Source: Dyadobacter luteus (GTDB lineage: Bacteria; Bacteroidota; Bacteroidia; Cytophagales; Spirosomataceae). From it: 64,000 nucleotides of DNA. Both the position numbers and the translations under genes were made by a program. The notes beneath the pieces are model-generated. The model was not told the origin of the DNA and made no database searches. It saw only the letters and a list, made by a program, of their open reading frames with translations. Positions 35,998-50,673 of the stretch are shown piece by piece; positions within the stretch are counted from its first letter, which is position 1; each line of letters begins with the position of its first letter. The stretch spans positions 310,001-374,000 of the forward strand of contig NZ_QNUL01000003.1 in assembly GCF_003383615.1 (NCBI RefSeq), given 5' to 3'.

Positions 35998-36726
35998 TCA
36001 CCCCATCTGATCAGTCATTTTTCCTGACTTCTTCAGATAACGCACATAGAAATAAACTATACCCAGAATCACCAGCGCAGTCGCAAAAATATAGAGCCTC
36101 TGCTCTTCATCCGGTACTATTTGAGGATATTTAAAAAGCAAAATTGCCACGATCCCGACAAGCCAGACCATTAGCGTATTGTATTCTTTCAACAACCAGC
36201 GTTTGTAATTGAATCGCATCTGGTTCATGGTGGCACCTATCCCACCAAACCGGATCAGCCAGCGGTTAACCCGACTACAGTACTGATCAAAATCCGACCC
36301 GAATTTGTTACGCAAAAAATTCTCCTCAGCTAACACAATCGCCTGATAAATAAAGAGAAACAACGGAATGATAATTCCTACATAGATCAGAGAATTCGAA
36401 AGTACACCCACGCCCAGCAGCATCAGAATATTACCCACATACAGCGGATTACGGCAATGATTAAATATTCCTTCTGTAACGAGCTTCTCAGCGTATACCT
36501 TTTTATCACGCCCGCCCCGAATGATATACGCCAACCCAATGGTTATTCCGCGTATAATTTCTCCTGAGAAGGTAATTACCAGACCCAATATGATAGGAAT
36601 TAGATAATAGTTTGGGCCAAATGCTTCTTGCGTGAACAGTGGAGCAGAAGGTAAGAAAAGCAATAAGTAAAGAAAAATGAAGAGTGTGTTCCTGTATTTG
36701 AAAAAGAAATTACCGATTGAAATCAT
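35998..36726 (-). CDS. Isoprenylcysteine carboxyl methyltransferase-like membrane protein
   Basis: 242 residues with about five or six membrane segments. The catalytic-site-like region reads GIFNHCRNPLYVGNILMLLG, and the second signature AEENFLRNKFGSDFDQYCSRV follows. Both are shared by ICMT and phospholipid N-methyltransferase (PEMT/NnrU) families, which methylate a lipid or lipid-anchored substrate using SAM. The start overlaps the CmoA-like stop by 4 bp, so they are translationally coupled. The methyl acceptor is unknown. Confidence 0.8.
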   Translation of the reverse strand: MISIGNFFFKYRNTLFIFLYLLLFLPSAPLFTQEAFGPNYYLIPIILGLVITFSGEIIRGITIGLAYIIRGGRDKKVYAEKLVTEGIFNHCRNPLYVGNILMLLGVGVLSNSLIYVGIIIPLFLFIYQAIVLAEENFLRNKFGSDFDQYCSRVNRWLIRFGGIGATMNQMRFNYKRWLLKEYNTLMVWLVGIVAILLFKYPQIVPDEEQRLYIFATALVILGIVYFYVRYLKKSGKMTDQMG

Positions 36727-37478
36727 GATTTTTTATGAGCTATCATTCCCGAAAAATTATACCATTTGAAGAAAGTTTCGCAATCTCCGAAACCTGCCTC
36801 TTTAAGCAGTAACAGGTTCTCTGACAACTTATAGGGTATCAGTACATTTTCAAGCGCCTCCCGTTTCTGCGAAATCTCCATTTCGCTGTAATGATTTCGT
36901 CTCTTGTAATTATAGTAGTACTTTATAAAGTCACGGTTGAAAACAGTACTCTCGGCGAGCACCTTTTCTACAAGTAGCAATACACCACCCGGATTCAATC
37001 CTTCATAAATATTCCGAAGCAGGCGCTCCCTGTAGAGCGGTCGTACAAATTGCATGGTGAGACAAAGGATTACCACAGAGGCATTTTTAATGGGAAGTTG
37101 CTCATGCAAATCACCCACAACAAGATCATACGGACGCACAAAACCAGCCTCTTTGAGCTTTTTATCACACTTATCCAGCATTTCTGTAGACTCATCAATA
37201 CCGATGAATCGTACGTCGGAAGGAATAAGCTTATCAACCTCTATCATGGTCGTTCCTGTAGAACACCCCAAATCATAAACGAAGCTCCCTTCTTTAACAT
37301 GGTCAGCAGCAATCTCCGCCAACATTCTCTGCGTTTCATTGTAAAACGGTACCGACCGGCTCACCATGTCGTCAAAAACGGTGACAACCTTTGTACTGAA
37401 TTTGAAATCTGAAACTTTTGTAATCTCTTCATTAAAAACCAAATCCCTTCCTCCCTGTTCCACATCCTCTGTAATCAT
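36723..37478 (-). CDS. cmoA: CmoA-like carboxy-SAM synthase
   Basis: 251 residues from the ATG at 37478. Similarity to CmoA extends over the full length: VVTVFDDMVSRSVPFYNE, SAM motif FVYDLGCSTGTTMIEVDK, LCLTMQFVRP, IYEGLNPGGVLLLVEKV, and YSEMEISQKREALENVLIP, where the conserved Arg (QKR) matches E. coli Arg199. CmoA makes carboxy-S-adenosylmethionine from prephenate for CmoB in tRNA cmo5U34 synthesis. No cmoB is near, and the partner here is a lipid-type methyltransferase, so an alternative carboxymethylation or ordinary methyl-transfer role is possible. Confidence 0.8.
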   Translation of the reverse strand: MITEDVEQGGRDLVFNEEITKVSDFKFSTKVVTVFDDMVSRSVPFYNETQRMLAEIAADHVKEGSFVYDLGCSTGTTMIEVDKLIPSDVRFIGIDESTEMLDKCDKKLKEAGFVRPYDLVVGDLHEQLPIKNASVVILCLTMQFVRPLYRERLLRNIYEGLNPGGVLLLVEKVLAESTVFNRDFIKYYYNYKRRNHYSEMEISQKREALENVLIPYKLSENLLLLKEAGFGDCETFFKWYNFSGMIAHKKS

Positions 37479-37953
37479 AATTGAGTAATTTAAAGTTAGG
37501 TACGTCAATACTTTTCGCTTGTCTGATCCGGGCTGTTCCTAAGCCAGATATACCGGATTATTATACAGTACGCAGAATAAGCGGGAAAGGTATTAAAAAA
37601 ACCTTAGAATTTCTGAAAGATCAGAAAAATTGGAACTATTGAAAAAGAGTTCAAATACCAAATAAATTAAATATTACAATACGATTTACATCCATTTAAG
37701 ACAGTTTTTGGCTATCGTACCTAAATTTCAAAATTCTTAACATTAAGGAAATATAGTAACGATGTTGTGTAAGCGCTGGAATCTGCAAGTAGGATGGTTG
37801 GATTTCTCACAAAATTATATATTTCCCTCCATATCAGATACTGGTAACGTTGAAGCACAATATTCTTCAATAAACCAAAAGCAGAACTCGATACAATTAA
37901 CTAAGACTGACCATTACACACAATTAAAGTTTTGAAACATCAGTAGAGATAAA
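37479..37953. other. Intergenic, no gene seen
   Basis: About 475 bp upstream of cmoA with scattered AT-rich stretches. It probably contains the cmoA promoter. I see no frame with coding composition, no RNA gene and no clear repeat. Confidence 0.6.
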
Positions 37954-38012: not shown

Positions 38013-38624
38013 TCAGTAATCCGATCCGAATATCTTGTCCCAAAAATTTGAACTGACTCCAAATCCCTTTTCACTATCCGAATAATGGTGTACCATATGA
38101 TGTTTTTTGAGCTTCTTCCAAAATTCATTTTTGAAACTGGCATGATGCAGCGCATAATGTGTCATGTCATAGAAAAGGTAACCCGTTATAAATCCCGAAA
38201 AAAAAGCAGCTAATGGGAATTCAGTGAAAAACAAACTAAACAAAAAGTAGAATCCCGTAGCAAGCGGAATGCTTACAGAAGGAGGCATTACCAGTCTCAT
38301 AGCATCGTTGGGATAATCGTGATGTACACCATGAAAGATAAAATGTATGCGTTCCATAAGTTTACCTTTAGGAGTAAAATGGAACACAAAGCGGTGCATC
38401 ACGTATTCTGTCAGCGACCAGATGAAAAGTCCTCCCGAATAATAGGCTGCGAATGAAAGCAGCGACATCTTACCGGGAAACAGAGCGCTCCATGAGAAAT
38501 AGCCGATTACCGGTATAAAAATAAAAAGTGGAACGCTGTAATGGACTTTGGAAAGGGGTTCAAGAAAGTTGCTCTTGAACATTCTTGTGGACTCACGCGA
38601 GTTCGAGACATAATTTTTAGCCAT
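38013..38624 (-). CDS. Fatty acid hydroxylase / FA2H-like membrane protein
   Basis: 203 residues, four hydrophobic segments and the histidine clusters of the sterol desaturase/fatty acid hydroxylase superfamily: HRFVFHFTP, FHGVHHDYPND, HYALHHASF and KKHHMVHHYSDSEKGFGVSS followed by DKIFGSDY. The last block closely matches fatty acid 2-hydroxylases (FA2H/Scs7), which hydroxylate the acyl chain of ceramide; the cytochrome b5 domain of eukaryotic FA2H is absent. It ends a cluster starting with serine palmitoyltransferase and lies 1 bp after the DUF4833 gene. 2-hydroxyceramide formation is a strong inference. Confidence 0.85.
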   Translation of the reverse strand: MAKNYVSNSRESTRMFKSNFLEPLSKVHYSVPLFIFIPVIGYFSWSALFPGKMSLLSFAAYYSGGLFIWSLTEYVMHRFVFHFTPKGKLMERIHFIFHGVHHDYPNDAMRLVMPPSVSIPLATGFYFLFSLFFTEFPLAAFFSGFITGYLFYDMTHYALHHASFKNEFWKKLKKHHMVHHYSDSEKGFGVSSNFWDKIFGSDY

Positions 38625-38625
38625 G

Positions 38626-39204
38626 TCAGGATGGTTTTATGCGTTGTACAATAGTTTTGCCGGTTGCGATTTCAGTTCCTTTTAATTCAATATAAAGTAC
38701 ATTCGGAGACCAGAAAGTCCCGCCATCAATGCGTATAAACACACGGCTCAGAATACATTTTCTGGTACCTATGTCAGCGTAAACATGGTATTTATTCTTA
38801 CTGTCCTTTCTGAGATACAAAGGCAACTTCGAATAAGCGACAGATCTTAATTCAAAATCTCCGTTACCAATTGACTTTGAGTTGATTCCGTAGGCAAATT
38901 TACGTTGAAGATAATTCAGATCTTTACGACCTCCCCCTTCGGGATAACGTATCCAAAAGGTACTAACGGGATCTTTTTCTTTCACCTGACCCTGTGCATC
39001 CCTGTTCAGCTCATACACAATTGTGTTCGTATTAGGATCCCGCTGTATGTAGAATAACAGACCCGGAACCTCGCGACCCGGAACCGGAAAAGTGTCAGGA
39101 TCTGCCAGACTCCCCTTCTCAACCGATTTGTCTAAGTTTGTTCCTTTAAAAGAAAAAAGGAACGGTATCAAACTGATTATTAATATGCTGATGACGTATT
39201 TCAT
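38626..39204 (-). CDS. DUF4833 secreted or lipid-anchored protein
   Basis: 192 residues with an N-terminal signal peptide (MKYVISILIISLIPFLFSF) and a mature beta-rich domain (LLFYIQRDPNTNTIVYELN, ending RVFIRIDGGTFWSPNVLYI) matching DUF4833. The function of this domain is not known. It lies between the PfkB kinase (11 bp) and FA2H-like (1 bp) genes, so it is likely cotranscribed and exported, possibly a periplasmic lipid-handling protein. The role is speculative. Confidence 0.78.
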   Translation of the reverse strand: MKYVISILIISLIPFLFSFKGTNLDKSVEKGSLADPDTFPVPGREVPGLLFYIQRDPNTNTIVYELNRDAQGQVKEKDPVSTFWIRYPEGGGRKDLNYLQRKFAYGINSKSIGNGDFELRSVAYSKLPLYLRKDSKNKYHVYADIGTRKCILSRVFIRIDGGTFWSPNVLYIELKGTEIATGKTIVQRIKPS

Positions 39205-39215
39205 AAAAAACAGCC

Positions 39216-40127
39216 TTACTTTTCTTCGGCACTCACACTCGTAATGTACGGGGTATAAGAACCCTGATTAATAATTGCTTCCACTTCTTCAATTCCATGG
39301 GTAAACGGCCCGGAGACCGCAATGTTTAACGTAGCCATAGCTGCCCCATATTCTCCGGACTGCTGGATAGACGCCCCCTGTATACGTTTCATAAGATAAC
39401 CCGCCATGTAGGTATCTCCACAGCCGGTTGCATCCACGATTGCAGCTGGTTCATAAGCAGGAATGGTATGGAAAATTCCATCTCTGTATACAACCGAGCC
39501 TTTACTTCCCAAAGTGATAATCACCTCTTTCACACCCATCTCAGCCAGAATTTTGGCTCCATCCTCAACATCAGCGGTACCGGTTACAGCCTGCATCTCA
39601 AACTCATTGGCTTTCAGGTAAGTGATGTATGGCATGGCTTCGTTCTTGTCTGCCCAATCCGTATAGTACACTTTTTTGTCTTTGACATAGCGCAGGAAAC
39701 CCTGGATGTCCAGTGATACTTCTCCTTTTGACGCCAAATGTTTTATAAGCGCAACGGAGATATCGTCCGACAGCAATGGTCCAAGATGGAACACTTTCGC
39801 ATTGATGTCCGGCATCTGCGGAACATCAAAAGATGCTGCAGTATGCAGTACATTTTGCTCACGGTGATCCTGATTCTGACTATAGATGTTCTCAAAGTGA
39901 ACTGTAAACTCACTGAAAAGCGCATGCACTTCTATATCAGACTCACGTAAAGCATCTACTATATGGGCCTCTTCGCTGCTCAGTGCAGTCACGAGGGTAT
40001 AATTCAGATCGAAGTTCTGTATCGCTTTTGAGAAGTAAAATGAGGTACCCCCCGGCATAAATTTAACAGATTGGGTTGTCACTACTTTATCCAGCGTGAT
40101 GTGCCCTATGGTACAGATATCGTACAT
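39216..40127 (-). CDS. PfkB-family carbohydrate or inositol kinase
   Basis: 303 residues. It has PfkB features: KFMPGGTSFYFSKAI near the N-terminus and the ATP/anion-hole catalytic signature VDATGCGDTYMAGYLMKRI with its base Asp around residue 230. The substrate could be a sugar, inositol or nucleoside. Position in a cluster with a nucleotidyltransferase and a CDP-alcohol phosphotransferase makes a kinase for a head-group polyol (such as myo-inositol) attractive, since PfkB-fold inositol kinases exist. No direct substrate evidence. Confidence 0.82.
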   Translation of the reverse strand: MYDICTIGHITLDKVVTTQSVKFMPGGTSFYFSKAIQNFDLNYTLVTALSSEEAHIVDALRESDIEVHALFSEFTVHFENIYSQNQDHREQNVLHTAASFDVPQMPDINAKVFHLGPLLSDDISVALIKHLASKGEVSLDIQGFLRYVKDKKVYYTDWADKNEAMPYITYLKANEFEMQAVTGTADVEDGAKILAEMGVKEVIITLGSKGSVVYRDGIFHTIPAYEPAAIVDATGCGDTYMAGYLMKRIQGASIQQSGEYGAAMATLNIAVSGPFTHGIEEVEAIINQGSYTPYITSVSAEEK

Positions 40128-40175
40128 TTTATTACTGGTTTAGTCCGGCCGGTTTCGATAAACCAGCATCACAGA

Positions 40176-40892
40176 TTACTTATTCAACTGATTTATTATA
40201 CCCGGAACCTGACTGAAATCCTTAATTTCAGCATCTGCCTGGTACGGTCCTTCATGATTGACGGTGGTATCTTCCCATCCCGCCACATTGATCCAAATCG
40301 CCTTGCAACCTATTGTTTTGGCCGGCACAATGTCTTTGGTGAAAGAATCACCGATAACCACACATTCCTCAGGTTTCAATCCCAGTGCTTCAACACCGAG
40401 CTGATAGATTTTAGGATCAGGCTTACGCACTTTCACCACAGCCGACTCTACAATTTCCTGAAAGAAAGATTCGATTTCAAACACTTCCAGCACACGATTG
40501 ATATTCCCGTAAAAATTGGAAACCAGAATAACAGGATACTGGCTGGCCAGCTCTTGCAGAACAGGTTTTGCCTTTCTTACTGTCTCCAATGCAAAGTCGT
40601 TACACTCCTTCGCAATTGCTTTAATAAGCTCTGCAGGTAACTCCGAACCATTATCCTTCAGGAATTGAAACTGTTGTTCAACCTTCAATTCAAGCGTGTC
40701 ATAAAAGGAATGCGAGGGTTTGATAATAGGGTTAATCGCCAGCGAACGTTCTCCAAATGAATAGGCTTTGGAAAACTCTTCCTTTGTAATCCCTGATTCA
40801 AACTTCTGATAGGCGCTCCACAAAACCGAACCCCAATGCAGACCGTTTGTATCTATCGTCCCACCGTAATCTATCAATACTCCTTTTATCAT
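40176..40892 (-). CDS. HAD-superfamily hydrolase
   Basis: 238 residues, subfamily IA-type phosphatase fold. Motif I is GVLIDYGGTIDTNG, where the nucleophile Asp is followed by Y-G-G; motif II VILVSNFYGN, motif III Lys in VVKVRKPDPKIYQLG and motif IV VVIGDSFTKDIVPAKTIGCK. Motif I departs from the usual DxDGT, since the second Asp is Gly (DYGGT), so phosphatase activity may be reduced or specialised. It lies 4 bp from the flippase-like gene. It could remove phosphate from a lipid head group or act on an intermediate. Confidence 0.83.
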   Translation of the reverse strand: MIKGVLIDYGGTIDTNGLHWGSVLWSAYQKFESGITKEEFSKAYSFGERSLAINPIIKPSHSFYDTLELKVEQQFQFLKDNGSELPAELIKAIAKECNDFALETVRKAKPVLQELASQYPVILVSNFYGNINRVLEVFEIESFFQEIVESAVVKVRKPDPKIYQLGVEALGLKPEECVVIGDSFTKDIVPAKTIGCKAIWINVAGWEDTTVNHEGPYQADAEIKDFSQVPGIINQLNK

Positions 40893-40895
40893 AAC

Positions 40896-41942
40896 CTATT
40901 TATTTGCCGCAATTGAATGCGCATAACTTAATTCATTTTCTTCGGTCGCCTCTTTTGAAGAACCTTTTCTGTTGATCAGCGCCAGACCAATCAGGATCCA
41001 GACAATCTCTCTGATACGCATCACCACACCTATGAAGATACCTGCAGAAGCCGCCATACCTACACTGCTGAGCGCCATCGCCAAACCTCCTTCGCGGGTC
41101 CCGAGTTGCATCGGGAAGAAGAATACAAGATTGGCAAACAAAGATGATCCGGAACTGATTACCAACGATTCCATCACAGACATATCCAGGCCGATTGCTA
41201 CCGCAGTAAAATAGATTTCTGCACATCCTACCACTCTCGCAGCAAACTCCAGAAACAACGACCAGTAAAATCTTGGTTTTCTGTCTGCATACAAAATCCT
41301 GATCTGATTGTCGATTTCAAGCAGAGATTCTGCCTTTTCTTCACCAAAAGCACGTGCTTTTTTTCCAACGAACGGAAGTTTTCCCAGCAAGTTAATTGTA
41401 CTGACAGTAAATCCTTTGCGATAAACCCGGATGAACCAATAACCCAAAAGCAAACTTGTGATCAGCATAAATCCACATCCGGCCAGAATCATGCTATTGA
41501 CCGGAATAAAAGCCAGGATCAGCAGAATTGAAACTAACCAAAACAAAACATGGGAAAACATATGCATCAGGCTGTACAAAAGTACCGACGATGTTGCTTT
41601 ATTGATTCCGAGCGTCTGTTTCAGCTCCATGATGCGGTAGGGTTCTCCACCCAGCGCAACAAAAGGGGTAATATAGTTAATGGCGTATCCACTGATCGTC
41701 AATCTTAGAACAGACCAGAAAGACATATTGCTCTCCGGCAAACCAGGCTCCTGAATAATCGCTTTAAAAGCATAAGCATTTAAAACGTAGATCAATAGCC
41801 AACTTCCGATAACAGGGACAAACCATATTCCGGTTTTCTGAATATTTTCCCATATAGATTCCACCCCGATGCCATAAATCATATAGCCGAGTGTCATAAC
41901 CCCTATGAGCAGAAATACCGCCTTATATATTTTAGACCCCAT
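40896..41942 (-). CDS. Lysylphosphatidylglycerol synthase TM/UPF0104 flippase-like membrane protein
   Basis: 348 residues with about eight membrane segments. Family features: NYITPFVALGGEPYRIMELK and FFFPMQLGTREGGLAMAL. These polytopic proteins (AglD-like/UPF0104) are thought to flip lipids across the cytoplasmic membrane. It overlaps the CDP-alcohol phosphotransferase gene by 11 bp. A role in flipping the finished (phospho)sphingolipid to the periplasmic side fits but is inference. Confidence 0.85.
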   Translation of the reverse strand: MGSKIYKAVFLLIGVMTLGYMIYGIGVESIWENIQKTGIWFVPVIGSWLLIYVLNAYAFKAIIQEPGLPESNMSFWSVLRLTISGYAINYITPFVALGGEPYRIMELKQTLGINKATSSVLLYSLMHMFSHVLFWLVSILLILAFIPVNSMILAGCGFMLITSLLLGYWFIRVYRKGFTVSTINLLGKLPFVGKKARAFGEEKAESLLEIDNQIRILYADRKPRFYWSLFLEFAARVVGCAEIYFTAVAIGLDMSVMESLVISSGSSLFANLVFFFPMQLGTREGGLAMALSSVGMAASAGIFIGVVMRIREIVWILIGLALINRKGSSKEATEENELSYAHSIAANK

Positions 41943-42897
41943 ATTCTGTACCAGTAGTAATCTTTTTATAAAAATGATTGCTCACTTGTTCCTGTTTCAA
42001 ACACATGTAGATCAGGATCGGATTCAGGACAAAAATGTCGAAGAAGAAGTAAATCCAAGCTTGGTCCAGAAACAACCACAGGAATAAAAACAGAACCCTT
42101 GTGTTAAACTGGATAATATTGGTATACTTCATCAAAGGTTTGTTCATTGCCCGGAAATCGATGATCAGATTCTGAGGTAAACCCATTTTAAATTTCTCTC
42201 TGACAACAGCAAGTAACTTCTGCAGCTTTGGAGAGAAGAATTCCTGCTGTTTGGTATAATTCAGATACGTGCGCGCCACCAGCTTCATTCCGAAATCTTT
42301 CGACCAGGTCAGCTGATCGTACTCGCGTTGCAGATCACGGCTGTTATCCAGTTCACTTCCGGAAGTCCCTTTGATAAAGAATAAATGAACATTTCTGTAA
42401 TAATCTGCCATGGCCGACTGCACCACGTGAGAAGCTCCTGCTAACACACCCGGAATCCAGATCAGCGCTGTCCAGCCTTCTTCCATGCTCCGAAGACAGA
42501 TGGCAATATGGATCGATATAAACCAGAAATCCCCTGCAGCTCCGTCAAGAATCCGGCCAAGTCTGCTTTTGTTATTCGTCAAACGGGCCAACTGCCCATC
42601 GGCACTATCCAGCGAATTGGCAAACACTAGGGAAAGCATTCCCATTACATTCACCCAAATGTCCTGACTGTAAAAGAGAATACCGGCGGCAACACCAAAG
42701 AAAATACTGATGATTGTTACCGTATTAGGCGTCATTCCGATTTTGGCACAAAACAGTGCTATCTGATACCCAATAGGCCGATAGAACCAAATATCAATTT
42801 TCTCTTCCGTATCATTCGACTTCAGTGAACTTTCAAATGCTGAAACGTCCTGCGCTTTCGCCGTCACTACGGTATCGTCTTTAAATGTGTTATCCAT
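41932..42897 (-). CDS. CDP-alcohol phosphotransferase, variant active-site motif
   Basis: 321 residues from the ATG at 42897; the frame from 42963 adds 22 residues that overlap the ATP-grasp gene. Several membrane segments. The CDP-alcohol motif is recognised in SLDSADGQLARLTNNKSRLG, then RILDGAAGD. The first three Asp and the A-R are canonical, but the fourth Asp is displaced by one residue (D-x4-D instead of D-x3-D). It transfers a CDP-activated polar alcohol to a lipid. The neighbouring sphingoid-base genes suggest ceramide or a related lipid as acceptor. Confidence 0.85.
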   Translation of the reverse strand: MDNTFKDDTVVTAKAQDVSAFESSLKSNDTEEKIDIWFYRPIGYQIALFCAKIGMTPNTVTIISIFFGVAAGILFYSQDIWVNVMGMLSLVFANSLDSADGQLARLTNNKSRLGRILDGAAGDFWFISIHIAICLRSMEEGWTALIWIPGVLAGASHVVQSAMADYYRNVHLFFIKGTSGSELDNSRDLQREYDQLTWSKDFGMKLVARTYLNYTKQQEFFSPKLQKLLAVVREKFKMGLPQNLIIDFRAMNKPLMKYTNIIQFNTRVLFLFLWLFLDQAWIYFFFDIFVLNPILIYMCLKQEQVSNHFYKKITTGTEYGV

Positions 42898-42902
42898 CCG
42901 GA

Positions 42903-43766
42903 TCAGTTTGAAAACTTTTGAAAAATTCTTTGCGCAATAAAGCCTGCTGCCTCGTCGCGACATGGCGCAAAGCTCGGCCAGTCGTTCAGATCAATGATAT
43001 GAAATGTTCCGCCGGCGCCTACTATTGCGTCGCCTCCGTAAATATCTATTCCTAAAACCCGGGCCGACTCACCAGCAATTTGCTGTAATTTCTGCTCGTC
43101 GAATTCGTAATACAACGACTTTCCATTGATCGTTTCGTATTCAGAATATTTATGATGGTTGTTATCGTAAGGATAAAACCAAAAGAAAAAGTCTGTGCCG
43201 TAAACTCCATAAAACTTCACAAGATCTCCTACGAGGTGTTCTGAAATAACTGCATCAGGGATTTCACGAAGCGCATATTCCTTCAGAATTTCCTTTGCCT
43301 CCTTACGGGTGTAAGCAAAGGTTACATCTTCCTTATGTATAGCATGAAAGTCTCCCCTTTTGATCCAAAATCCTTTTCCGGGCAAATTGTCAAAAACTTC
43401 TTCACCAACGTAATCGGTTGATACCACATAACTCTTAGGATAAGGAATTGCATTGTCCACTAATCCGTTGGTCATATTTGTCCTGAAGCAATTCTCGATA
43501 CCAAAAGCGGAATTTACCACCTTCACTCCTGCCTGCTCCAAATCCTGCAATTTCTTCACGACCTCCTTTTGGCGAGCCATAGTAAAGATCATATCATAAG
43601 GAACATCCTCCATTTCTAAAAACTCATTCTCAAAAACAAGATCTACCTGTCCTCCAAGTTTTTCCAGTTCCAGCTTAGTCAATGAAAATATAGCGTCATC
43701 ATTCCCAATGTGATTGGGGGAAAATTTCTTATTCCTGGGTACGGCCAGTATTCTTTTATTATTCAT
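42903..43766 (-). CDS. ATP-grasp-like protein, unknown substrate
   Basis: 287 residues. A predicted ATP-grasp fold is suggested by the GKGFWIKRGDFHAIH segment (nucleotide-binding lysine) and by the C-terminal VLGIDIYGGDAIV, then HIIDLNDWPSFAP, the acidic/Asn metal-binding end of RimK- and ITPK-type proteins. Family not firmly recognised. Possible activities are amide/ester ligation of an amino acid to a carboxylate or inositol phosphate phosphorylation, as for the structurally related ITPK. The gene sits 5 bp before the CDP-alcohol phosphotransferase and after a 111-bp gap. Confidence 0.6.
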   Translation of the reverse strand: MNNKRILAVPRNKKFSPNHIGNDDAIFSLTKLELEKLGGQVDLVFENEFLEMEDVPYDMIFTMARQKEVVKKLQDLEQAGVKVVNSAFGIENCFRTNMTNGLVDNAIPYPKSYVVSTDYVGEEVFDNLPGKGFWIKRGDFHAIHKEDVTFAYTRKEAKEILKEYALREIPDAVISEHLVGDLVKFYGVYGTDFFFWFYPYDNNHHKYSEYETINGKSLYYEFDEQKLQQIAGESARVLGIDIYGGDAIVGAGGTFHIIDLNDWPSFAPCRDEAAGFIAQRIFQKFSN

Positions 43767-43877
43767 AGTAAACTGCCTTTAACCTTTGCTTCTACATTGG
43801 TTTCAGGCCTCATTAATCAGTGTCAGAATTCTTTACTTTACCCTGCTCGGGTTATTATCCGGACTTCACCAGCCCTT

Positions 43878-44591
43878 CTACGCCTCTGCCGTTTCCATTA
43901 AAAAATGTTCAGCCGTTTCAATGTCCGCAACGTGATCTACATCCACGATTTTAGAAAACGGATATGCTTTCAGCTTCATGCCGCTGGTCAGCAACTGGCG
44001 CTGAAAATTACGCATCCGGTTGGTTCCATTCTCAACAGCTTCTGTAGCTACCTGTAACGCTTTGCCGCGAAGACAATAAATACCGCCAGAAATAAATGGT
44101 GTATTTCCTTCATTGCTATCGGTGAATGCGGTGATATTTAATTCCTGATCCGCCTGAACAAACAATGGGCTTTCGTCGTCAATGAAGGTTGTCACAGCCA
44201 TCAGGCCATCAATTTCCTTGTCAGCCTCAAAGGCCTGTATGAACTCCTTAAATTCCGCTTCTCTGAATACCGTATCAGTGGTTGTAAGGCAGACCGCATT
44301 TAACTCGTCGGCATTCCTGAGCAATTCATAAAAGCTGTGGAGCGAACTTGGAGTAGTCTTTTTAGTGATTTGCAGGCTATAGTCAGAACCAAGACTAGCC
44401 AGATGCGTCTCCAAAAGCACAGCCTCTTCGTTGATGATAATATAAATCGCATCAGCCTGGTTACGTGAGAAAACCCCCACGAGCCTGTCGATAAGCATTT
44501 CTCCGTTAAGACTCACCATTGGCTTTGGCAAAGTGAAACCTTCCTTTGCCAACCGCGAACCTTCTCCTGCTGCTATAACTGCGTAATTCAT
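43878..44591 (-). CDS. NTP transferase (nucleotidyltransferase) for an activated head group
   Basis: 237 residues with the GT-A-like pyrophosphorylase motif VIAAGEGSRLAKEGFTLPKP followed by LNGEMLIDRLV; the acceptor/metal motif lies around VCLTTTDTVFRE. It resembles MobA/IPCT/LicC-type enzymes that make CDP- or UDP-activated compounds from a phosphorylated alcohol. Next to a CDP-alcohol phosphotransferase and a sugar/inositol-type kinase, a CTP:alcohol-phosphate cytidylyltransferase is the simplest reading. Confidence 0.8.
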   Translation of the reverse strand: MNYAVIAAGEGSRLAKEGFTLPKPMVSLNGEMLIDRLVGVFSRNQADAIYIIINEEAVLLETHLASLGSDYSLQITKKTTPSSLHSFYELLRNADELNAVCLTTTDTVFREAEFKEFIQAFEADKEIDGLMAVTTFIDDESPLFVQADQELNITAFTDSNEGNTPFISGGIYCLRGKALQVATEAVENGTNRMRNFQRQLLTSGMKLKAYPFSKIVDVDHVADIETAEHFLMETAEA

Positions 44592-44651: not shown

Positions 44652-47210
44652 TTAAAAATCGAGCCTGAATCTCGCTCTTATTCCCCATTCTGAAATATTG
44701 GGGTTGTCCAGGTAAGTAAAACGCTTAACAAGATCAACCCGAAGGAGTTTGAATATATTCGCAACACCTACGCTACCTTCAATATAAGGTTCTCTGGAAA
44801 GTGTGTAGGAAATTGGTTTGCCATCCTGATCCACCGGAAAGTGAAATACAGATGCTCCGTTTGCAGGATTATTTTCATCTCTGAGTCCGCCTACCAAGCC
44901 TTTGAAACTAAATACTTCTCTCAGTTTCAACTTTTTAAGTAAAGGCACTTTGTTAAACAAAAACCCATTCATGTAATACTGTACATCCAAACCTGCGTAG
45001 TGATCACTCACAAACTCCAGGAAGTTCATCAGGTTATAAGAATTAAGCTGATAGGCATAGGTTTGGTTCGCACGATGAATGGTCAGCAATGGAAAAGGAA
45101 TATTCTTTCCTACTATATAGCCCCCTTCTCCCGTCAGATCCACAAATCCAAACTGCGACAAATACACTCTTTTCGTAATGTTAGCATTGAAATTATGGTA
45201 GCTTGTCTGCCCATCCAACACTCCTTTTAACCCAGCATTGTAGCGAAGTGTAAAAATCGGGAATTTGTTGATGATCGGCGTTCTGTACAATTTCCCCTGG
45301 TAAAACTGTTCTCCCGGCGCATAACGAAGCTCTACATTCACTTCGGTATTTCTCAAACGTTCAATATTCACAACATCGCCAATAGGCTTCACAGCTTCGT
45401 AGCGCAGTATACCTGCCGGACTTTGCGCCCATTGCGTAAATCCTAATTTGTAGGAGAAACGGTTCTGGAACTCACGCACATACTCCAGCTTATATACATC
45501 ATTGTAAAGCCATCTGTTGTTATCTCCACGTTTGAAAGATAGAAGGAAGTTGTCTTCCTGTACAAACTGAAGATCCTGTCCCGGAATTTTAGTATCGCGC
45601 TGATAACTTGCTCTTATGTAATGCAGCGGGAAATGATAAACCGATTTGTTATTCAGCGAATAGGTTCCACTTAAAAAGTATTTCCATTTTTCATCTTTGA
45701 AACCATAGGCAGCATATGTTTCGAAAAATACTCGTTTACTCAGTTCTGTAGTTGTCCGACCACCAAATCGCAAACGCAAACCTTCCACAGGGTTGAAGCT
45801 GTAAAAAGTATTCACAGGCCCTATTTCCACTTTACCAAAAGACTTGTATCCAGCCAAAAACAAAGTTGTAATATCCATCGTTCTGCGGAAGGATGGGATC
45901 GTTTGCAGTGTGTCTACATTTCGATAGATGTTCTTTTCCGATCTGTCCAAAGGCATATGCCGCACCTGAGCCCAATAGTTCTCTCCTTTTCTTTCCAGAG
46001 GGTTAAATACGATCTGCTGCGCCGGACCCCGGTAAAGGCTGTCAGCCTGCTCCTTGTTGATCTCGTAATTTTTGAAATTAACAGTACGTTGCCCGTACAA
46101 GCCAGCGCCTTTATCCCCAAGCGCGAATTCCATCCCCAACGTGGTTTTGCTCAGGTGATAACGACCGTCTGTACTTTTCTCAAACTCAAGACGCGCTTCC
46201 AAATCCCTCATAAAATTGAGGTTGATATCTTTATTCACCGTCAGGTATGCGTTTTGGACTGCGTAATTCCCATCAAGCGTGATGAATAGCCTTCCTTCGA
46301 AAAGCATATCCGTTTTGTTACGCGGCACAAATCCAAGTTCAATCAGCCACGGCTCCTGAGTTTTGACAGTATCCCTGATAAAAAACTTATAGAATGTAGG
46401 TGCAGTGTTTGCAATAGGGCTCAGTAACAGGTTCGTCGCAATTGAAACATCATTTTTATAAATGTTGATGTCTTCATACAAACGGTTGAAATAAGCACTC
46501 AAACCATCGTTATCAACAAATTTGCTATCGAATTCCGCACGGCGATTTGCCTTTACCCATTGTTTCTTGGTATACGGACTTTTACGAAAGTAAACCTGCG
46601 ACAGTTTTTCTTCCATGTATGCAGGCAGCATATTCTTGCCACCTATTGCTGCCGAATCCTGGTCATTGAACAGAAACTGATAATTCTTAAATACCTTTCT
46701 ATCCTTAAATTTATCCGACAGGTTGCTCAGGGCAAAAGACATTTTCTCATACTGCTCATACTCTACGAAATCGTAGTTAGCCATTTGATTTTTGTCTTTG
46801 TTAGCAATCACCTGGCGAATCAGCTGAACAGCAGGATTATCCCTGTTACGGTATTTCGCTCTACCTTTTACCGTGATCTCTTTGAGCATAGAAGCATCCA
46901 CACGCATTTTGATATTCTGCACCTGATTGGTGCCCTGCGGTATCGTTCTTTCTACACTTTCGTAACCCACATATGTAAACCTGATCCGGAAATTGGGGGC
47001 TGTCAGGGTCATTGCATATTTCCCATCCACATCCGAGGTGGTTCCCATGGTTGTTCCAGGAATAACAATATTTACGTACGGTAATGTCTCTCCGGTTTTT
47101 TCATCAGTGATCACCCCTTTTACGGTGGCGGACTGTGCCGTTGCATCTGCAATTCCTAAAAACAGAATTGAGATAGAGAGCACCCATTTTATATATGCTT
47201 GCTTAAACAT
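44652..47210 (-). CDS. DUF5686 / carboxypeptidase-regulatory-like outer-membrane protein
   Basis: 852 residues from the ATG at 47210 (TTG at 47246 is less likely). Signal peptide ending near ATAQS, a carboxypeptidase-regulatory-like (CarboxypepD_reg) domain (about 25-110: VKGVITDEKTGETLPYVNIV), then a DUF5686 region and a C-terminal beta-barrel-like part ending IRARFRLDF with terminal Phe. This combination is common in Bacteroidota outer-membrane proteins of unknown function. Located in the lipid cluster, on the same strand. It may take part in outer-membrane assembly or lipid transfer; that is speculation. Confidence 0.85.
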   Translation of the reverse strand: MFKQAYIKWVLSISILFLGIADATAQSATVKGVITDEKTGETLPYVNIVIPGTTMGTTSDVDGKYAMTLTAPNFRIRFTYVGYESVERTIPQGTNQVQNIKMRVDASMLKEITVKGRAKYRNRDNPAVQLIRQVIANKDKNQMANYDFVEYEQYEKMSFALSNLSDKFKDRKVFKNYQFLFNDQDSAAIGGKNMLPAYMEEKLSQVYFRKSPYTKKQWVKANRRAEFDSKFVDNDGLSAYFNRLYEDINIYKNDVSIATNLLLSPIANTAPTFYKFFIRDTVKTQEPWLIELGFVPRNKTDMLFEGRLFITLDGNYAVQNAYLTVNKDINLNFMRDLEARLEFEKSTDGRYHLSKTTLGMEFALGDKGAGLYGQRTVNFKNYEINKEQADSLYRGPAQQIVFNPLERKGENYWAQVRHMPLDRSEKNIYRNVDTLQTIPSFRRTMDITTLFLAGYKSFGKVEIGPVNTFYSFNPVEGLRLRFGGRTTTELSKRVFFETYAAYGFKDEKWKYFLSGTYSLNNKSVYHFPLHYIRASYQRDTKIPGQDLQFVQEDNFLLSFKRGDNNRWLYNDVYKLEYVREFQNRFSYKLGFTQWAQSPAGILRYEAVKPIGDVVNIERLRNTEVNVELRYAPGEQFYQGKLYRTPIINKFPIFTLRYNAGLKGVLDGQTSYHNFNANITKRVYLSQFGFVDLTGEGGYIVGKNIPFPLLTIHRANQTYAYQLNSYNLMNFLEFVSDHYAGLDVQYYMNGFLFNKVPLLKKLKLREVFSFKGLVGGLRDENNPANGASVFHFPVDQDGKPISYTLSREPYIEGSVGVANIFKLLRVDLVKRFTYLDNPNISEWGIRARFRLDF

Positions 47211-47309
47211 GGCGTAAGCTGAATAATTTCCTTTTTTATTTTTCAAAGCACTTCCTTCCGGACAAGTTTGCTAACTGTCCGCTGACTTAATCTCAGATCC
47301 GTTTTTATG

Positions 47310-48331
47310 CTATAACCACTGGTGTTCCCTGTACCAGCTCAGTGTTTGATATACACCTTTTTCGAGTTCAAATTGAGGTGTATACCCCAATCGCACTTTC
47401 GCTTTTTCAATGGAACAGTTCCAGTTTTCAGCTGTAAGTTCTCCAATCTTTTCCCTATTGAGTACCGGGGCATTACGGGAAAAAGTTGAGCATATTTCGA
47501 GTATTTCTGCGGTAAGTTTTATAACTCCGACAGGCAAATGAATCCTGGTGAGCTTGTTTTTGCTAAAATTCCTGAACAAATCGGCCAACTGGTATCGGTT
47601 GTATTCCCTTCCGTCGGATATATTGTAAACGGTATGGTTCACGTCAGTCTCATTGAGAGCAGCCATCGTAGCCGCCACCAGATCGTGTACATATACAAAA
47701 CTCAGCCGCTGTGGTTTTTGGCCTATGTACAGATCAAGACCTTTGCTTAATGTCTTGAACAATATATAAATATCCTTTTCTCCGGGACCGTATACGGCTG
47801 TTGGTCTGATAGTTGTAAGCGGAAGCTTTGTCAGCTCTGCCAGATAACTTTCCGCAAGCAACTTACTTTTACCGTAAGATGTAACGGGTCTCGGATCGGT
47901 ATATTCGTCAATCGGTATCGGCGAATTGTATTGAATCGGACCAAGTGCTGCAAGACTGCTCATGAAGACAAAGCGCTTCAAAGGAAATCCCGCTTCCAGT
48001 GCTGCCTGAGCAAGACGAAGCGTGTAGGTGGCATTGATCTCGTTATATATCCCGGTTTCTTTGGCGCGGGTCACGCCTGCTGCATGAATTACATGACTGT
48101 AAGCACTACTTTTAAATAAATCGAGTAACGCTTCCTTTGAGTTAAAATCCGGATACACAAATAGCAGTTTCCCTGTTTTATTCTCCTCTGCCTTTTCTCC
48201 CAACACTTTCAGTTCACTCGTATTGCTCGATCTTCTCACTGCAGCATGCACTTCAAATCCCTCATCCAACGCTGCCTTCACAAGATGCTGACCAATGAAT
48301 CCACTTGCTCCGGTAATCAAAACTCTTTTAA

Positions 48332-48335
<4 letters not shown>
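47310..48335 (-). CDS. NAD-dependent epimerase/dehydratase-type reductase, ceramide reductase candidate
   Basis: 341 residues, extended SDR. Glycine motif TGASGFIGQHLVKAAL (8-23), SSLAALGP serine region, catalytic SYGKSKLLAES (YxxxK). It overlaps the GNAT gene upstream by 4 bp. In Caulobacter, an NAD-epimerase-type protein (CerR) next to serine palmitoyltransferase reduces the 3-keto group in ceramide synthesis, and the present order is the same. The assignment rests on this gene context and family, not on sequence alone; other sugar-nucleotide epimerase roles are possible. Confidence 0.8.

Positions 48336-50673
<2,338 letters not shown>

Follow-up and report, generated by a model that had tools for sequence, protein, structure and literature searches.

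An operon in Dyadobacter luteus that probably makes ceramide and adds a phosphoinositol head group to it

We analyzed a 64,000-nt stretch of the 6.95 Mb genome of Dyadobacter luteus (hereafter, the window), which carries an operon that probably makes ceramide and places a phosphoinositol head group on it. The head-group part is a module of six genes at positions 39216-44591, whose layout an earlier note on this DNA had described correctly: all six open reading frames (ORFs) are present on the minus strand in the order given there. Read from the upstream end, they encode an NTP transferase that is a candidate CTP:inositol-phosphate cytidylyltransferase (43878..44591; PF00483 and PF12804), an ATP-grasp protein that is a candidate inositol-phosphate kinase (42903..43766; assigned by an AlphaFold model, Foldseek and weak profile matches), a CDP-alcohol phosphotransferase-like membrane enzyme (41932..42897; PF01066), an LPG_synthase_TM/UPF0104-like membrane protein that may be a lipid translocase (40896..41942; PF03706, 1.7e-29), a HAD-family protein (40176..40892; HAD_2) and a PfkB-family kinase (39216..40127; PF00294). 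The matches to PF00294, HAD_2, PF03706, PF01066 and the two NTP_transferase models all pass the Pfam cut-offs. The ORF of the CDP-alcohol enzyme extends to 42963; its start is probably at 42897, because the three nearest homologues have 315-323 residues compared with 343 for the ORF.

Upstream of the module on the same strand lie the genes for a serine palmitoyltransferase (spt; 49450..50658; NCBIfam NF047600, 720.7 bits against a cut-off of 640), a GNAT-like acyltransferase (48332..49453; PF00583) and an NAD-dependent epimerase-like protein (47310..48335; PF01370). The latter two received only general family names from Pfam and NCBIfam, and we take them to be the bacterial ceramide synthase and the ceramide reductase, respectively. 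A DUF5686 protein with a carboxypeptidase-regulatory domain (44652..47246, minus strand; PF18939 and PF13715) is encoded between this trio and the module, and from spt through GNAT, epimerase and DUF5686 to the six genes the gaps are short or the genes overlap. After PfkB, again on the minus strand, follow a DUF4833 protein (38626..39204; PF16117) and a fatty acid hydroxylase that possibly acts on ceramide acyl chains (38013..38624; PF04116).

The order spt-GNAT-epimerase-DUF5686-NTP-ATP-grasp-CDP-alcohol-LPG_synthase-like-HAD-PfkB-DUF4833 recurs in two genomes of the same genus and one of a sister genus (L007, L008 and L009), and the window-type order also occurs in 28 of 67 complete loci from named genomes; for these reasons, the arrangement is not a product of chance. 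The named loci came from a scan with an alignment of 19 ATP-grasp proteins as query, which matched at least 593 stretches, 549 of them confirmed. The best 80 of these 549, which lean to Dyadobacter, were annotated by comparison with proteins of the window and its relatives, and the 67 whose flanks reach 6 kb or more in both directions were treated as complete, the other 13 lying less than 6 kb from a contig end on one side. Because the 80 loci were fetched with the ATP-grasp alignment, they give no measure of how frequently that gene is missing. The earlier note had tied the module to ceramide synthesis and proposed checking whether the gene order recurs with spt; that check was run here and strengthens the tie: both spt and PfkB adjoin the module in 30 of the 67 complete loci.

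Among the same 67 loci, a separate NTP transferase gene was found in 65 (a count that misses two loci in which it is fused to the ATP-grasp gene), a CDP-alcohol gene in 66 (including two of the BT1523 type described below) and a HAD gene in 65. The LPG_synthase-like membrane protein gene was present in 50 and not found in 17, and the DUF5686, DUF4833 and fatty acid hydroxylase genes were present in 31, 30 and 18, respectively. The window's form of the cluster is carried by Dyadobacter, Runella, Rhabdobacter and Larkinella. The Sphingobacterium cluster consists of myo-inositol-phosphate synthase (MIPS), NTP transferase, ATP-grasp, CDP-alcohol, membrane protein and HAD genes, and Dysgonomonas and Tannerella relatives have NTP transferase, ATP-grasp, CDP-alcohol and HAD genes, often with MIPS. 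In Parapedobacter (L112 and L113), spt, MIPS, the module and PfkB stand all together, with HAD moved behind the others in one of the two.

The ATP-grasp protein is a steady member of the module. Within a phylum-wide sample of 296 genomes, 97 had some match to the CDP-alcohol enzyme and 14 had a close one (E below 1e-50, hereafter module-type); 12 of these 14 also encode the ATP-grasp protein. The ATP-grasp protein itself was found in 12 of the 296 genomes, a count that leaves out 3 of 15 with only weak partial matches, and all 12 have the module-type enzyme. Near the two close CDP-alcohol matches without it (L050 and L051), no NTP transferase, ATP-grasp or HAD genes were seen. A search led by the CDP-alcohol gene yielded 13 places that also contain NTP transferase and HAD genes (the window, L009 and L039-L049), and the ATP-grasp gene is present at every one of them. 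The gene is rare in the window's order, with 4 strong matches across 148 genomes, none outside the window's family. A further family search, centered on G398, found the protein in 17 of 201 genomes, a result that was not used.

The source of inositol phosphate divides the clusters. MIPS and PfkB each occur in 30 of the 67 complete loci: 28 have PfkB and spt without MIPS, 28 have MIPS without PfkB or spt, 2 have all three and 9 have neither MIPS nor PfkB, so that PfkB seems to stand in for MIPS across clusters. At the level of whole genomes, where MIPS absence was judged with one Pfam model on mostly draft assemblies, MIPS was found in 11 of the 12 ATP-grasp genomes of the phylum sample compared with 49 of 296 overall (Fisher p 1e-8, relatedness ignored). 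The sole ATP-grasp genome without it is a Runella, which has PfkB. Within the window's family (91 genomes), 14 encode the ATP-grasp protein, of which 3 have MIPS (G473, plus lower-scoring matches in G000 and G127) and 11 showed none. MIPS also lies inside the distant clusters L039, L040, L042 and L043 according to a Pfam scan and, judged by position, in L041 and L044-L048; for L049 it is on a separate contig. As a side observation, a MIPS match was located within about 1 kb of a gene for a more distant CDP-alcohol relative that keeps the fourth signature aspartate (see below) in G155, G150, G204, G196, G297, G165 and G218.

The earlier note had stated that no inositol-phosphate synthase is present. 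This holds for the operon, none of whose proteins matched MIPS, and fails for the genome, which carries a divergent MIPS elsewhere. This divergent inositol-3-phosphate synthase is encoded on contig 12 of G000 (L140:8825-10030); its nearest model is TIGR03450, below the cut-off, and a similar score was obtained in G127. Inositol, which the note had offered by analogy, can now be argued from evidence: because MIPS stands in homologous clusters and the kinase keeps the substrate residues of a known inositol kinase, as described next, the polyol is most likely inositol.

The closest solved structures to PfkB are those of TM0415 (1vk4, 4e-25, 92 bits, over residues 4-285 of 303; and 5ysp), followed by 7e4l (2e-23, 87 bits) and then ribokinase (7e-12, 48 bits). 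TM0415 is a pyrophosphate (PPi)-dependent myo-inositol kinase that makes the 1-phosphate (PMC5931981). It resembles the window's kinase over nearly the full length, and its inositol-contacting residues D11, N78, Q141 and R145 are kept in all 31 PfkB homologues. The PPi-specific residues differ: R229 and R232 are replaced in the 31 homologues by alanine (threonine in one) and by cysteine, K171 being kept, and the PPi signature RXGRGD of TM0415 reads A-T-G-C-G-D in the window. Given the replacement of both arginines, we predict that PfkB is an ATP-dependent myo-inositol kinase rather than a PPi-dependent one.

The NTP transferase weakly matches, among other NCBIfam models, that of IPCT-DIPPS (NF041135). 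Its residues R13, K23 and D106 are kept in 90 of 90 sequences, and we equated them by motif and by eye, not by alignment, with the active-site residues R16, K26 and D112 of IMPCT (PMC12275187). This set and those for the CDP-alcohol, HAD and ATP-grasp proteins (89, 86 and 96 sequences) were drawn from the window, L039-L049 and L060-L139 at E 1e-10, with BT1523-type genes excluded. As for the closest solved relatives of the CDP-alcohol enzyme, AF2299 comes first, followed by choline/ethanolamine transferases and phosphatidylinositol phosphate (PIP) synthases; its structural model gave no Foldseek match below 0.001, the best being again AF2299 and PIP synthases.

The ATP-grasp protein had no Pfam match at E 0.001, and its two NCBIfam matches, both to RimK-kind glutamate ligases, fall far below their cut-offs (rimK_fam, 21.9 against 143.4 bits). 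Based on its AlphaFold model (predicted local distance difference test score 90.4) and Foldseek, the product of 42903..43766 is assigned the ATP-grasp fold. Residues K136, H141, H144, K184, D246, D259 and N261 are invariant in 96 of 96 sequences. A profile built from the wider set of relatives (A1) matched the inositol phosphate kinase ITPK4 at 2e-5, and one built from closer relatives (A2) matched the Entamoeba ITPK (EhITPK) at 3e-4, with everything else above 0.05. By eye, the lysine of the VKFY motif faces a lysine in both ITPK alignments that extend this far and an arginine in the peptide ligase 7drm. Because ITPK4 and human ITPK1 scored better with A1 than with A2, we treat the kinship with ITPK as a lead only.

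Two gene fusions bear on the sequence of reactions. In two metagenome-assembled genomes, from Dysgonamonadaceae (L121:9224-10843) and Candidatus Symbiothrix (L126:9224-10843), the NTP transferase and ATP-grasp proteins are fused into one protein of 539 residues. The two fusions are 91% identical to each other, and the L121 protein shares 53% and 54% identity with the window's two separate proteins. A fusion of the CDP-alcohol and HAD proteins has been described in P. veroralis (PMC9246714). Together, they suggest that a kinase acts ahead of cytidylylation and that HAD follows the transfer.

A replacement of the transferase bears on the product. In two Dysgonomonas loci (L122:9295-14588 and L123:9304-16835), inositol phosphoceramide genes of the BT_1525-1522 type take the place of the module's CDP-alcohol gene. 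After the ATP-grasp gene, L122 has genes for PgpA, GtrA, a PIP synthase and a PAP2 protein; the last two score above the NCBIfam cut-offs for PIPSynBT1523 and phosphoinositol dihydroceramide synthase, respectively. Genes of similar size and start lie at the same place in L123, where the PIP synthase passes its NCBIfam model and HAD and MIPS genes follow; neither of the latter was seen in L122. The module-type enzyme was not found elsewhere in either genome. The presence of BT1523-route genes where the module's transferase would stand ties the locus to phosphoinositol dihydroceramide.

In our judgment, the best and a probable explanation of these sequence comparisons is that the operon yields a ceramide bearing a phosphoinositol head group. 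Spt and the GNAT and epimerase proteins would make the ceramide. PfkB would phosphorylate myo-inositol, probably scavenged, with ATP and so replace MIPS as the source of inositol phosphate; the NTP transferase would make a CDP-inositol, the CDP-alcohol enzyme would transfer phosphoinositol to a lipid and the LPG_synthase-like protein may move the product across the membrane. The succession of kinase, cytidylyltransferase and CDP-alcohol transferase was already drawn in the earlier note and is supported here. For the ATP-grasp and HAD proteins, the possibility that we favor, and that would fit both fusions, is that the ATP-grasp protein is a kinase adding a second phosphate to inositol phosphate before cytidylylation, and that HAD removes it after the transferase has acted; we give this slightly less than an even chance. 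The broader proposal that Bacteroidota make inositol lipids through a doubly phosphorylated intermediate, by way of an unrecognized bacterial ATP-grasp kinase, a CDP-inositol phosphate made by the cytidylyltransferase to which that kinase is fused in some species, a transferase lacking the usual catalytic aspartate and an atypical HAD that takes off the extra phosphate, with Dyadobacter and its kin working on scavenged inositol, is tentative and, taken as a whole, rather doubtful.

Several observations weigh against this interpretation. Foldseek places D-Ala ligases, ArgX/LysX and RimK above the first ITPK among the best 50 of 1331 matches, where ITPKs rank 13 and 33; with E-values as close as 4e-13 for the ligases and 2e-12 for the first ITPK, fold comparison did not separate kinase from ligase and was set aside as a test. 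The peptide ligase 7drm was nearly equal to ITPK4 in the A1 profile (5e-5), and the A2 profile gave ITPK4, 7drm, ArgX and human ITPK1 values of 0.058 to 0.16. Single Pfam scans of the 19 ATP-grasp members gave RimK in 3 and ITPK in 2, all weak; the ITPK model PF05770 reached 0.0048 at best and did not match the window's protein, and the commonest name was Imm40, in 5 of 19, which looks like chance. In the CDP-alcohol enzyme, the first three aspartates of the class I signature DX2DGX2ARX8GX3DX3D are kept, and the fourth, the presumed catalytic base of the family (PMC6506517), is glycine in 89 of 89 sequences (Gly144, numbered from 42963); nine more distant relatives (L050-L058) retain it. By our own reading, the model of this enzyme has about six membrane helices, a count that hydropathy did not settle, and six-helix enzymes of the family are tied to soluble acceptors, extra helices being tied to lipid acceptors (PMC4634129).

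The HAD protein adds to the difficulty. Its motif I reads D-[YF]-G-[GA]-T, with the first aspartate kept and the second replaced by glycine, each in 85 of 86 sequences, and the loss of the second makes a simple phosphatase role less likely; S125, K157 and G181-D182 are kept in 85 or 86 of the 86. The missing fourth aspartate, the HAD motif and the six-helix reading together make the proposed transfer step tentative. The description of HAD and ATP-grasp in the earlier note as proteins that adjust the head group also proves too loose, as HAD lacks its usual catalytic aspartate and the ATP-grasp gene accompanies the NTP transferase and CDP-alcohol genes in distant clusters too. Gene content raises further objections. 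The NTP transferase and ATP-grasp genes are retained in L122 and L123 after the swap, and in another Dysgonomonas locus (L125:9269-14849), NTP transferase, ATP-grasp, HAD and MIPS genes occur with a gene for a 590-residue protein in the CDP-alcohol gene's place, with neither a module-type nor a BT1523-type transferase found in that genome. Neither MIPS nor PfkB is nearby in the 9 complete loci mentioned above.

One alternative is a plain Kennedy-type route, in which CDP-inositol is made from inositol monophosphate and phosphoinositol is transferred directly to diacylglycerol or ceramide. The ATP-grasp protein would then act as a ligase, forming an amide or ester that modifies the head group (with an amino acid, for instance), and HAD would have another role. 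Such a route follows the pathway logic of Heaver 2022 (PMC9246714) and agrees with the leading place of ligases among the best Foldseek matches and with the weak RimK matches in NCBIfam and Pfam. Extra genes, such as an aminotransferase and a Gfo/Idh oxidoreductase in L043, join several distant clusters, and the ATP-grasp gene is doubled in four of them. However, none of the 80 named loci showed an L043-like aminotransferase at E 1e-6, so that an amine for acylation is not evident there, and the NTP transferase/ATP-grasp fusion better suits a kinase that feeds a cytidylyltransferase. Phosphoinositol dihydroceramide, moreover, has been reported from B. vulgatus and P. veroralis (PMC9246714), which would count against this route if the two have the ATP-grasp gene. 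We consider the Kennedy-type route unlikely, although it is the strongest of the alternatives. A different division of labor would shift the phosphate between inositol positions, with HAD dephosphorylating the MIPS product and the ATP-grasp kinase re-phosphorylating free inositol. The MIPS product is the 3-phosphate. TM0415 gives the 1-phosphate, and two of the three pocket residues linked to that difference (PMC5931981) match in PfkB. An ATP-grasp enzyme acting on free inositol would leave PfkB superfluous as a second inositol kinase, yet 30 of the 67 loci have both, although loci fetched by their ATP-grasp gene say little about PfkB clusters without it; we judge this shift improbable.

Two further alternatives change the product or the polyol. 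The product of the module might be an inositol phosphodiester other than a sphingolipid, for example phosphoinositol diacylglycerol, a capsule part or a soluble di-inositol phosphate, with spt adjacent for regulatory reasons. AF2299, PIP synthases and IPCT-DIPPS are indeed among the closest solved structures, spt is not nearby in 28 of 30 MIPS-type clusters, and inositol has been found in the capsule of B. thetaiotaomicron (PMC9246714). Set against this are the joining of spt to the module in 30 of 67 complete loci and the phosphoinositol dihydroceramide synthase set that replaces the transferase in Dysgonomonas L122, and we give this alternative only a small chance. Least probable of all, to a degree that makes it very unlikely, is a polyol other than inositol, for instance glycerol, mannose or another sugar alcohol. 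PfkB kinases have many substrates, and a mannose-bearing ceramide lipid occurs in Sphingobacterium. Phosphorylglycerol ceramide is mentioned for Porphyromonas gingivalis (PMC9246714). What speaks against such a substitute is that MIPS occurs in 30 of 67 clusters and that PfkB keeps the TM0415 residues.

The distant clusters L041-L048 contain further genes. L042 has MlaE, MlaF and MlaD (Pfam), and L043 has a class-III aminotransferase and a Gfo/Idh oxidoreductase inside the module (Pfam), with genes of similar size and placement in other distant clusters; the ATP-grasp gene is doubled in L041, L045, L046 and L047. These clusters could represent an amino-inositol lipid pathway. Relatives of the CDP-alcohol enzyme that are 24-40% identical and keep the fourth aspartate occur without the full set of NTP transferase, ATP-grasp and HAD genes in L050-L052 and L056, the last with a single weak NTP-like match. 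Near the operon's end in the window (35998-37508) lie genes for a CmoA-type methyltransferase (TIGR00740, over its cut-off) and a PEMT-like methyltransferase, and relatives of both trail the operon in 20 of the 80 named loci. Promoter-like sites numbered 27 compared with 27.4 in shuffles, and terminator-like sites 21 compared with 11.2, a difference that we do not interpret.

Finally, we compared the operon with known systems. A second bacterial route to inositol lipids, consisting of MIPS, an NTP transferase, a CDP-alcohol transferase and HAD, was predicted but left unproven by Heaver 2022 (PMC9246714), and a 2023 review repeats the prediction (PMC10191378). The cluster on which it is based, from B. 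vulgatus and Prevotella, shares with the window the NTP transferase, CDP-alcohol transferase and HAD genes, with LPG-synthase-like and carboxypeptidase-regulatory proteins nearby; this homology was taken from the published descriptions, not from sequence comparison. If its locus tags rise in steps of five, BVU_RS13095, 13105 and 13115 suggest a window-like order in which single genes separate the three, and the spacing suggests BVU_RS13100 as a candidate ATP-grasp protein. Apart from PfkB, then, the six-gene set resembles this predicted alternative cluster, and the claim in the earlier note that the system is undescribed does not stand. The window differs in having no MIPS in the cluster, PfkB in its stead and a junction to ceramide genes. 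The transferase pattern given for B. vulgatus ends in GX3DX3D, which the 89 sequences aligned here do not match, and "ATP-grasp" is absent from the main text of that paper. Among the open-licence PMC papers listed by literature searches, none dealt with the spt-linked, kinase-fed form or its ATP-grasp member.

Other systems share single features with the operon. The BT_1522-1526 inositol phosphoceramide pathway leads to the same presumed product, and genes of its kind replace the module's transferase in L122 and L123; it uses a PIP synthase, a PIP phosphatase and an inositol phosphoceramide synthase, and the accounts drawn on here name no NTP transferase or ATP-grasp protein (PMC9246714, PMC8791184). 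In the Caulobacter CpgD route to ceramide diphosphoglycerate, a cytidylyltransferase makes the CDP-activated head group for ceramide, as proposed for the window, with a different head group; this likeness, too, is drawn from the published description (PMC12275187). ITPK inositol phosphate kinases share with the window's protein the ATP-grasp fold, a weak profile match and the lysine of VKFY, and differ in that the window's protein fails the Pfam ITPK model and has ligases as its nearest Foldseek folds (PMC7614388, PMC8024741). What is new relative to these systems is the ATP-grasp protein as a steady member, its fusion with the NTP transferase, a CDP-alcohol enzyme lacking the fourth aspartate and a HAD protein lacking the second aspartate of motif I. 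The second inositol-lipid route drawn in 2022 thereby gains a fuller parts list that includes an ATP-grasp enzyme, as well as a salvage version in which an inositol kinase would replace de novo synthesis, with direct predictions for free-living Dyadobacter and Runella. The odd residues of the transferase and the HAD protein point to chemistry beyond the published drawing.

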